Shown here in pieces: positions 22,671 through 25,657 of a stretch of DNA of 46,555 nt (positions are counted from its first letter, which is position 1; each line of letters opens with the position of its first letter). The position numbers and the translations under genes were made by a program. The notes beneath the pieces were generated by a model. That model made no database searches. It was given only the letters and a program-made list of their open reading frames with translations, and was not told the origin of the DNA. Location of the stretch: positions 1 through 46,555 of the forward strand of contig QWQY01000003.1 of the NCBI GenBank assembly GCA_003670675.1, written 5' to 3'. Source of the stretch: Chloroflexota bacterium (GTDB lineage: Bacteria; Chloroflexota; Chloroflexia; Chloroflexales; Roseiflexaceae).

Positions 22671-22712
22671 ACCTGCAGGATGCGCATCATAGTGCGGATT
22701 ACTACAACGGTG

Positions 22713-22718
22713 TATAAT
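22713..22718 (+). promoter_or_regulatory. -10 box of a leaderless recombinase mRNA
   Basis: A perfect TATAAT ends six bases before the ATG of the recombinase, so transcription would start at or next to the A of the ATG. No good -35 and no ribosome site are visible. Confidence 0.55.
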
Positions 22719-22724
22719 CGATAT

Positions 22725-23744
22725 ATGAGCTGTACACTGACGCAAGCGCTCCAAGATTGGACCGTCGATCAACGCAAACGCCGCCGTGCCTTGTCCCCTG
22801 CCACCATCGCCTCGTATAGCGATGCGTGGCATGCATTCATGCAGTGGGCTGCGGCCAATGATCGCCATTCGACGCAATCGTTGCAGGCACGTGACTTCGC
22901 TGCCTGGATCAACACGCTCGGCCACCTCGCCGATGGATCGGTGCAGACCTACAGCCACGGTACCATTGCAATATGCAAATATCTGGCAGACCGCGGGCTA
23001 CTGGGATGCGAAATATCACTCATCCAAATGCACATTGGCGACGCGTTGCCACGCATCGTACCGAGTCGTGCACCCGACGTCGCAGACCTGCGCCGATTGG
23101 TCTCGTTCTACGACACAAACCTGTCTGCCGGTACGCCACACTCCAAGCCAGAGCGCGATCGGCTGTCGGCGTTGCGCAACAACGCGCTCCTGCATCTGCT
23201 TTTTTCGAGCGCCTGTCGTATCTCTGAAGTGCTCGCCATCGACATCGCCGATATCCGTGGTGATCACGGTGCAGTCGCGGCCCGTGTCTCGGTTGTCGGC
23301 AAAGGCAACAAACGACGCACCGTGTTTGTGCGGCCGCACGCGCGGACGGCGATCGAGGCCTATCTGCTGGCGCGGCGGGCGTCGTTCCCGAGTGCCACGG
23401 CGCTGTTTATTTCGCACGGGCCGCGGAGCCCAGGGCACCGGCTGAATCGGATCGCGGCGTGGAATGTCGTCACCCATGCGGCACTCACGCTGGCCGACAC
23501 CGTCGAATGCGATGGTCGCCCCCACGAAGCCGCACTCTTGCGCACGACCACCCCACACACCTTCCGCCATTTTGTTGCTATGTGGCTCCTCAACGAAGGC
23601 GTGCAGCTGTCAGAGGTATCGGCGATCCTCGGCCATGCCAATACACGCATCACCGAGCAATATTATGCGCGGCACACCGACGAACGCCTCGCCGAAGTGC
23701 ACGACCAATTCGCCGCAGATCCCCTGCCTCGCGGCGCACCCTGA
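22725..23744 (+). CDS. tyrosine recombinase (XerC/D-like)
   Basis: The 339-aa protein has an N-terminal SAM-like core-binding domain (~1-100) and the tyrosine-recombinase catalytic domain. All catalytic residues are visible: Arg in SSACRISEVLA, Lys in GKGNKRRTV, His-x-x-Arg in HTFRH, His in LGHANTRITEQ and the Tyr in QYYA. It probably cuts and joins DNA at a dif-like or att site. No transposon, phage or integron genes lie nearby and no target site was seen, so it may be a housekeeping or orphan recombinase. The ATG at 22725 is used because the domain starts there and TATAAT lies seven bases before it. Confidence 0.85.
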   Translation: MSCTLTQALQDWTVDQRKRRRALSPATIASYSDAWHAFMQWAAANDRHSTQSLQARDFAAWINTLGHLADGSVQTYSHGTIAICKYLADRGLLGCEISLIQMHIGDALPRIVPSRAPDVADLRRLVSFYDTNLSAGTPHSKPERDRLSALRNNALLHLLFSSACRISEVLAIDIADIRGDHGAVAARVSVVGKGNKRRTVFVRPHARTAIEAYLLARRASFPSATALFISHGPRSPGHRLNRIAAWNVVTHAALTLADTVECDGRPHEAALLRTTTPHTFRHFVAMWLLNEGVQLSEVSAILGHANTRITEQYYARHTDERLAEVHDQFAADPLPRGAP

Positions 23745-23880
23745 TGCGCGCTGTCGCGTGTATTGCGACGCAATTCCCACTCCGGCTATACACCTATCGC
23801 CGCATTCTGGTTTTCTCATGACGAACCGATGACCATCCTGCGTTCATCATCATTTATTCATCAGGGGTATGTCAGAACGA
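23745..23880. other. intergenic stretch after the recombinase
   Basis: No gene, hairpin terminator or repeat of note is seen before the promoter at 23881. Confidence 0.5.
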
Positions 23881-23910
23881 TTGAAAGAGCGTATCGTTCC
23901 ATGCTATAGT
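23881..23910 (+). promoter_or_regulatory. promoter of the NlpC/P60 gene
   Basis: TTGAAA (23881-23886) and TATAGT (23905-23910) are 18 bases apart. Each matches consensus in 5 of 6 positions. Transcription should start near 23917. Confidence 0.75.
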
Positions 23911-23916
23911 TTGTCT

Positions 23917-23940
23917 ATGTCTCCTGCGATGGAGGCGTGA
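23917..23940 (+). CDS. possible 7-codon leaderless leader peptide
   Basis: ATG at the predicted transcription start opens a reading frame MSPAMEA followed by TGA. It has no ribosome site. Its position suggests translation may affect the hairpins behind it. It may also be chance. Confidence 0.35.
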   Translation: MSPAMEA

Positions 23941-24055
23941 TTCGCCTGTGCAGCCGCGTTGTTTCGCAACAACCGCACACCCCAAATCATGTTGCACATC
24001 ATGAATGACCTGTTTATCTGTCTATGTGGTCATTCACTGAGGGAGTACCTACTCA
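23917..24055 (+). promoter_or_regulatory. structured 5' leader of the NlpC/P60 gene
   Basis: The ~139-nt leader can fold into consecutive hairpins. These are CTCC/GGAG (loop TGCGAT), GGCG/CGCC, then GTTGTT/AACAAC (loop TCGC) inside TGTGC/GCACA. Last is a perfect 9-bp stem TGAATGACC (24002-24010) with GGTCATTCA (24028-24036) just before the GGGAG ribosome site. It is not a match to the ydaO (c-di-AMP) consensus that I can recognise. Confidence 0.5.
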
Positions 24056-25657
24056 ATGGTCGACCAATCCAAACGCATGCGCAACGCCGCATCGGACCCA
24101 TATGAACTCATCCAACGGGTAAATCGCCGCCGTACCGAGTACCGCCGCGAAGAACGCACCACGCGTGTCACGGATCGAATCCCGAGCATCCAAACCCTGA
24201 TCCGCCGGCCTGAGCGTATTGCGGCGTTCTTTTCGCAGCGCATGGTGATGCACATTTTGGTGATTGCCCTGATCCCCGGTGCACTGCTGCTGAGCAAAAC
24301 CGAACTCGTTTTGGCAGTGCCCGAAATCGGCAGAGCCCCAATCCTGATTGATGATGGCAACAATGACTTCACGGTCGACGTCGCCCCTATCACGGACGAA
24401 TCGTTCAGCGAGGGCGATGCCCCGTTGACCGAGTCCGAAGACCTGCCCGTACCTATTTCGCTGGTGTCACGCAATCAGACCATGTCACCAGTCGTGGTCC
24501 CCGTCACGGTGATGACCGACCGCGCCTATATGCGCAACGGGCCTGGTACCAACTACGACCCAATCACCCGCGCATCGAGCGGACTCGAACTGCAAGTTAT
24601 CGGTAAATACGGCGACTGGTATCAGGTCCGCGAACGCGTCGACGCACCGGTGTTTTGGATGGCCGGCGAACTCTTGTCACTGCCCGAAAACGCTGCAGCA
24701 ACGATTTTTGACATCTTTGACAAAGACCTCCCGCCACCGCCCCCACCGCGGACAGGTATCGTGCTCGAATCAGGGCTGACCCTGCGTGACGGCCCCGGCG
24801 TCAATTACGTCGCCATCACCACACTCAAGCTCCGTGGCGAAGTCGAACTCATTGAAATCTATCAGGATTGGTACCATGTCGCGGTCGACTCGAAGACCGA
24901 CGGGTGGGTGAAGGCTCAATACATCGACGTCACCAAACCCGTCCTCGACCGCGTCATCACGGCTGATACCATCCCCGATCCATCACCAGAGCTCGTGGGT
25001 ACTGTCCGCGAAAGCAATGTCAATCTGCGCCTCGGACCTGATTCACGCCATGCCAAAGTCGGTACCGCTGATTTGGGGCGAAAGTTCGATCTGATAGGGA
25101 AGTACAAAGACTGGGTACAGGTCATGGACGGCAAAAAGAAGGTCTGGATCTTCAAAGACCTTTTGAACGCCACCTCGCATGTGCTCCGTCGTGTACCGAC
25201 CACGTCTGACTTCCCCGCGCTGCCGATTGGACCGACCCGTAATCGCAGTGGGAACAGCGGCGCGGGCGTCAGTACGAGTAGCGACGTCGCCAATGTGGCA
25301 TTACAGTTTGTTGGCTACAGGTATACCTGGGGCGGTACGACGCCCAAGTCTGGCTTCGACTGCTCTGGCTTGATGATGTACGCCTTCCGCCAAGTCGGCG
25401 TTACCATTCCACGGTTGGCGGCGTCGCAGTACAGCTTTAATGGTTCCATCGACATCAGCTGGGACAACATGGCGCCGGGCGACATGATGTTCTTCAAGAA
25501 CACCAGTGGTCGACGTGGGATTACCCACGTGTCGATGTACATCGGTGGTGGCAAAATGGTCCACGCAATGACCCCTACCTACGGCGTCCAGATTTCGAAC
25601 ATCTATGATGATTATTGGGTCAAGCATTTTTATGGTGCAGCCCGCGTCAAGCGCTAA
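24056..25657 (+). CDS. cell-wall hydrolase: three SH3-type domains + NlpC/P60
   Basis: The 533-aa protein begins with a ~60-residue basic cytoplasmic part and one transmembrane helix (~64-82, MHILVIALIPGALLL). It is exported or anchored outside. Three bacterial SH3-like modules follow (YMRNGPGTNYDPI..., LTLRDGPGVNYVAI..., VNLRLGPDSRHAKV...). The C-terminal NlpC/P60 peptidase has YTWGGTTPKSGFDCSGLMMYAFRQ with nucleophile C436, then GDMMFFKN and THVSMYIGGGKMVHA for the His. This fold cleaves peptidoglycan stem peptides. A poly-Pro linker separates modules 1 and 2. GGGAG precedes the ATG. Confidence 0.93.
   Translation: MVDQSKRMRNAASDPYELIQRVNRRRTEYRREERTTRVTDRIPSIQTLIRRPERIAAFFSQRMVMHILVIALIPGALLLSKTELVLAVPEIGRAPILIDDGNNDFTVDVAPITDESFSEGDAPLTESEDLPVPISLVSRNQTMSPVVVPVTVMTDRAYMRNGPGTNYDPITRASSGLELQVIGKYGDWYQVRERVDAPVFWMAGELLSLPENAAATIFDIFDKDLPPPPPPRTGIVLESGLTLRDGPGVNYVAITTLKLRGEVELIEIYQDWYHVAVDSKTDGWVKAQYIDVTKPVLDRVITADTIPDPSPELVGTVRESNVNLRLGPDSRHAKVGTADLGRKFDLIGKYKDWVQVMDGKKKVWIFKDLLNATSHVLRRVPTTSDFPALPIGPTRNRSGNSGAGVSTSSDVANVALQFVGYRYTWGGTTPKSGFDCSGLMMYAFRQVGVTIPRLAASQYSFNGSIDISWDNMAPGDMMFFKNTSGRRGITHVSMYIGGGKMVHAMTPTYGVQISNIYDDYWVKHFYGAARVKR

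Follow-up and report, generated by a model that had tools for sequence, protein, structure and literature searches.

A 139-nt leader precedes the gene for an NlpC/P60 peptidase in the window (the whole 46.5-kb stretch of DNA that was analyzed), and we propose with moderate confidence that it is a structured 5' UTR, conserved by selection in one subclade and acting in cis on the NlpC/P60 messenger. Judged by comparison with its orthologues, the leader is real, conserved and narrowly distributed and is probably cis-acting; its regulatory role is inferred. An earlier interpretation of the DNA letters (the sequence-only reading) had suggested a new cis-regulatory RNA at this place; the conserved and structured leader outside Rfam, ahead of a gene for an NlpC/P60 protein with SH3 repeats, stood up to the analysis, and its part in regulation is plausible.

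The host genome belongs to the Chloroflexales and comprises 165 contigs totaling 1.73 Mb; its closest named relatives are lake metagenome assemblies labelled Roseiflexaceae. By protein search, a relative of the NlpC/P60 protein was present in 59 of 60 genomes. Upstream of the gene lie a tyrosine recombinase gene (22680-23744) and one for a BTAD-type regulator; a nucleotidyltransferase gene follows downstream, and this last neighbor is conserved across the family. In some members of the genus (L037, L039-L042, and L045), the recombinase gene is syntenic and lies directly 5' of the NlpC/P60 gene; it was not found adjoining NlpC/P60 elsewhere in the family loci examined, where the downstream nucleotidyltransferase gene is mostly present. 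The features discussed below are collected in Table 1.

Table 1. Features of the NlpC/P60 leader and its surroundings (positions in the window)
Feature	Positions	Strand	Description	Basis
Conserved upstream box	23843-23862	+	TTCATCATCATTTATTCATC; about -74 to -55, ~20 nt before -35	identity above upstream spacer
Promoter	23881-23910	+	extended sigma-70 type, TTGAAA-18-TATAGT, TG before -10	10/12 consensus bases; aligned in 11/11 genus members
P1, 5'-terminal hairpin	23917-23938	+	ATGTCTCC/GGAGGCGT; begins at +1	kept in 6/6 leaders
Seven-codon frame	23917-23940	+	ATG TCT CCT GCG ATG GAG GCG TGA = MSPAMEA*	sequence; orthologous frames in six leaders
P2, 5' strand	23934-23942	+	GGCGTGATT; pairs with 23985-23993	9 consecutive pairs possible in 6/6 leaders
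PB, alternative stem	23947-23954 with 23991-23998	+	TGTGCAGC with GTTGCACA	via G-U pairs in G010
Small hairpin of middle domain	23958-23973	+	GTTGTT-TCGC-AACAAC	U-A to C-G compensatory change in G007; broken in G006 and G010
PC stem	23966-23971 with 23990-23995	+		G-C to A-U in G010
Hub strand	23985-24001	+	AATCATGTTGCACATCA; 3' strand of P2 (23985-23993), PB, and PC	highly conserved, among most conserved leader parts
P4, last hairpin	23999-24040	+	9-bp core, 24002-24010 with 24028-24036	kept in 6/6 leaders
Shine-Dalgarno sequence	24039-24045	+	GAGGGAG, 10 nt 5' of start codon	sequence; aligned GGGAG/GGGGG in six orthologues
NlpC/P60 peptidase gene	24056-25657	+	533 aa, with three bacterial SH3 repeats	Pfam PF00877 6.9e-29, PF08239 2.5e-27

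Promoter and folding of the leader

The promoter is very likely real because every one of the 11 genus members has a matching one (TTGAAN or TTGTAA, then ccatgcTATANT or a close variant) 5' of the orthologous gene. Only four sites of equal quality occur on both strands of the window, and this one is the sole member of the four with an ATG 5-8 nt past the -10 element. After the usual 6-nt discriminator, transcription is predicted to start at A23917, which is also the A of the ATG that opens MSPAMEA* and stands 7 nt past the last base of the -10 element. The clear promoter described by the sequence-only reading was therefore confirmed as a conserved site with an extended -10, and the start at this A is its predicted start site. 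The NlpC/P60 gene thus has its own promoter directly upstream, as a cis-regulatory leader requires, and would be transcribed from it.

Upstream of the promoter, the conserved box is possibly an activator or repressor site. Identity in the box region is 92% in both G005 and G007, 76% in G006, and 60% in G010, while the spacer further upstream shows 77, 71, 50, and 44% in G005, G007, G006, and G010, respectively. ATCAT-rich strings resembling TTCATCATCATTTATTCATC precede the promoter in some sister species (G003 and G004). Family members outside the genus (L012-L017) carry a different, strongly conserved promoter-like block, TTTGCAATTTTTAACACCTTATGGTACACTCGC, 5' of the orthologous gene.

The leader would run from A23917 to the NlpC/P60 start codon. 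Its minimum-energy fold opens with the 5'-terminal hairpin P1 of 8 bp, continues with a compound stem in the middle, and closes with P4, a perfect hairpin of 9 bp. Four hairpins had been described from the letters; this count is roughly right, with the reservation that the middle part has several competing folds, and the last of them was correctly placed by the ribosome site, where the perfect stem TGAATGACC/GGTCATTCA ends two nucleotides before GAGGGAG. Folding energy alone barely sets the leader of the window apart from shuffled sequence (z = -1.77, with 7 of 200 shuffles equally good), and the z values of the orthologous leaders range from -0.6 to -3.4.

In each of the six leaders, P1 starts at +1 to +3, leaving 0-2 nt between it and the predicted 5' end. 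It has 7 pairs in G010, its loop sequence is free, and its pairs change from U-G to U-A in G007 and from U-G to C-G in G010, the latter after re-alignment by hand. Because the 5' strand of P2 overlaps the 3' arm of P1, the two helices compete. A run of at least 8 pairs arose in 2% of column shuffles, and a single pair of P2 varies, from G-U to A-U. Each of P2, PB, and PC retains 5 or more pairs in every one of the six leaders. A pseudoknot of P2 and PB is possible on paper; we took the two as alternatives, since it would require a loop of 4 nt to bridge some 14 stacked pairs. A further pairing proposed by RNAalifold, GATTCGCC with GGGAGT, was weak and largely wobble in G010 and was not used. 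At the 3' end, the core of P4 can be lengthened by TCA/TGA pairing, which would take in the first bases of the Shine-Dalgarno sequence; this hairpin shows a U-A to A-U change plus two mismatches in G006 and is bulged yet longer in G010.

In studied bacteria, mRNAs with a closed 5' stem resist 5'-dependent decay. According to our favored reading, transcription would start at, or at most 2 nt from, the 5' edge of P1. Because the promoter places the start at this position, the mRNA would open with a closed stem, which may hinder attack on the 5' end. The middle domain and P4 would place the Shine-Dalgarno sequence at the base of a stem, and this may set the ease of ribosome loading. 5'-terminal stem-loops stabilize mRNA according to works summarized in PMC3997798, and RppH of Bacillus subtilis requires at least two unpaired 5' nucleotides (PMC3997798).

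Since P1 and P2 share bases and both can pair in all six leaders, a two-state switch is also conceivable. P1 together with PB would leave the Shine-Dalgarno sequence relatively free, whereas formation of P2 would open P1 and let its arm AUGUCUCC pair with GGGAG, shutting translation; a ligand, a protein, or temperature would make the choice. The common hub strand, being among the most conserved parts of the leader, is consistent with this, and when P2 was forced, the 5' arm of P1 paired with the Shine-Dalgarno region in the predicted folds of G001 and G007. However, these are only two of the six leaders, and the pairing partly follows from the GGAG within P1. We consider the switch unlikely because the P2 state lies 1-8 kcal/mol above the best fold in energy and P2 shows hardly any variation; with one varying pair, P2 offers no proof by covariation, and no ligand or aptamer is known. 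That P1 and a mutually exclusive long P2 form a hitherto undescribed riboswitch-like element of freshwater Roseiflexaceae, gating the NlpC/P60 Shine-Dalgarno sequence in response to a wall or envelope signal, seems improbable.

Selection on the leader and its distribution

The leader is under purifying selection, as its identity among orthologues indicates. Leader identity was.99 in G005, compared with.83 at third codon positions and.77 in the upstream spacer; the corresponding values were.88,.72, and.71 in G007,.81,.56, and.50 in G006, and.65,.52, and.44 in G010. Five helices of at least 6 bp were paired in all six rows of the alignment when P1 of G010 was re-aligned by hand, and four in the unedited alignment. 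Column shuffles gave means of 0.54 and 0.45 such helices and reached the observed counts in 0.25% and 0.75% of cases, respectively. The RNAalifold energy of the alignment was -29.95 versus -16.9 for shuffled alignments, and none of 300 column shuffles was as low.

The sequence-only reading had pointed to covariation among orthologous leaders as a check and to its absence as a refutation, and such absence was not observed. Within the counted structure, two pairs had changed on both sides in a compensatory way, one in P4 (U-A to A-U, G006) and one in the middle hairpin (U-A to C-G, G007), and the alternative stem PC adds a further double change in G010. Most leader pairs give no covariation signal because they never vary. 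In a pair-count control, which is only suggestive, 29 of 500 shuffles matched the observed covariation, which comprises only two double-change pairs. The six leaders on which the conservation and covariation signals rest represent about four independent lineages, and most helix-count measures were not significant when reduced to three lineages. Covariation in the leader thus appears real but thin, given the few independent lineages.

Shared ancestry could in principle account for the conservation, with no function beyond the promoter and the ribosome site. The lineages are few, the folding energies are weak, and the leader is unrecognized outside the subclade, all of which this explanation would accommodate. 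However, the leader exceeds third codon positions in every comparison, and P4 has a conserved stem but a loop of only 46-62% identity. We regard this already disfavored explanation as highly improbable.

It is likewise improbable that the conserved sequences are DNA operators around and beyond +1, bound by a regulator, with RNA structure being incidental. Inverted repeats do lie directly 3' of the promoter, the string ATCATG is repeated at 23986 and 23998, and the conserved box at 23843-23862 suggests that a regulator binds nearby. In G010, however, the P1 arms differ in sequence and the spacer between them is 5 instead of 6, while pairing is kept, which suits an RNA better than a dimeric operator. 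Moreover, P4, which is the best kept of the hairpins, is situated about 85-120 nt downstream; its sequence varies while most of its pairing stays.

Of the 11 genomes in the genus, 6 contain the leader DNA; it was found in no other class member among the 89 searched. A covariance model of the leader retrieved the same six genomes among 100 relatives with one site in each, and a multi-copy regulon was accordingly rejected. Two short leader-like DNA matches (G001 and G007) fall within coding sequence; they were attributed to chance. In the other five members of the genus, the gene is preceded by the promoter ccatgcTATACT or a near variant. The leaders of these species, 159-173 nt long, have a different sequence with no ATG at the start and fold no better than chance in four of the five species. 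Because these sister species share the promoter and have long leaders that differ in sequence, both features probably predate the leader sequence of the window type. The NlpC/P60 gene does not need the leader structure, since the sister leaders differ and four of five are not folded beyond chance. The structured version is, on this comparison, confined to one subclade of the genus, and the element of the window type is narrow and probably young.

The start of the orthologous gene differs in other ways among relatives. In other Chloroflexales (L012-L017, L020, and L022-L030), it sits inside the block GCTCC-ATG-ATYGAGC, frequently as GGAGATGCTCCATG. This block could fold into a small hairpin whose loop holds the start codon, and the hairpin is possibly conserved at the order level; the block is absent from the genus of the window. 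In the sister species L043-L046, an in-frame upstream start (MYAKFVFGTIQS...) lies about 60 nt 5' of the aligned start and possibly gives the NlpC/P60 protein an N-terminal extension.

The seven-codon frame at the predicted 5' end

An ATG opening MSPAMEA-stop at the predicted transcription start had been read as a leaderless ORF. The sequence is as described, and the frame could be a translated upstream ORF at which ribosomes start on the 5'-terminal AUG, so that their passage or release at the TGA affects the downstream gene. Several observations fit such an ORF: the predicted +1 in the window is the A of the ATG, all six leaders have an ATG 6-8 nt past the -10 element with an in-frame TGA 6-7 codons on, a 3-nt size change in G010 preserves the frame, and leaderless genes do occur in Chloroflexi (PMC3160421).

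The leaderless ORF was not supported by comparison of the leaders. Taking predicted start sites, the ATG lies 6, 6, 6, 7, 6, and 8 nt past the -10 element in the six leaders, 7 nt belonging to the frame MSPPMEA and 8 nt to MPQFEA. Because this spacing differs, an exactly leaderless start is not kept, and the predicted +1 leaves 1 nt before the ATG in G007 and 2 nt in G010. The frames read MSPAMEA (three leaders), MSPPMEA, MSPLMEA, and MPQFEA; their unchanged letters fall in the stems of P1 and P2, their changes fall mostly in the P1 loop, and no coding conservation of the peptide beyond the stem constraints was found among the six leaders. Both the ATG and the TGA lie inside conserved stems, and in the predicted folds of five of the six leaders the AUG is paired within P1, with an unpaired probability of 0.0-0.34. 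Furthermore, an ATG at the leader start is absent from the five sister species that share the promoter. Translation of this frame is thus very improbable. Most likely, the ATG...TGA frame is a by-product of the hairpin arm and not a functional ORF, and would have arisen from the pairing of P1 and P2; with the hairpin accounting for the frame, no translated peptide has to be assumed. Another short frame, which starts at 23988 and reads MLHIMNDL..., was rejected as coding because it is shifted in the orthologues by indels within the loop of P4.

Relation to known leader RNAs

The sequence-only reading had recognized no riboswitch consensus and suggested an Rfam scan, which agreed with it: the riboswitch and leader families of Rfam 15 gave no gathering-level match in the window or in 20 related loci. 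A permissive scan of 23700-24200 returned only a chance snoRNA match (E = 3.3). In Corynebacterium glutamicum, an nlpC gene is controlled by the c-di-AMP riboswitch (ydaO-yuaA, RF00379; PMC9960051), and in both cases a structured leader stands before an NlpC/P60 cell-wall peptidase gene. However, the covariance model of RF00379 had no match in the window or the 20 related loci, and the leader of the window, without a match in Rfam, is limited to one subclade of one genus.

Another likeness is to the 5'-terminal stem-loops of the ompA/papA type, as far as these are presented through the works cited in PMC3997798. In the six leaders, the stem starts no more than 2 nt from the predicted 5' end and is followed by a long untranslated leader. 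It differs in its added conserved middle domain and Shine-Dalgarno-adjacent hairpin and in belonging to another phylum, and its role in decay is putative. Leaderless genes are uncommon in Chloroflexi; they are reported from 4 of 12 genomes, with a share of about 4.7% of genes (PMC3160421). The window resembles leaderless mRNAs and upstream ORFs in having an ATG at the expected start distance after the -10 element, but the distance varies in orthologues, the AUG lies in a stem, the peptide is unconserved, and the downstream gene has its own Shine-Dalgarno sequence.

The novelty of the leader is modest, as it is a new candidate of a known type of leader RNA, and its reach is limited to one subclade of one genus. 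The case also shows that a 5'-terminal hairpin starting with ATG can mimic a leaderless micro-ORF. For the uncultured lake Chloroflexota, in which gene control is little known, it provides a candidate leader RNA outside Rfam, and this candidate sits on a wall hydrolase, a type of enzyme that cells must restrain.
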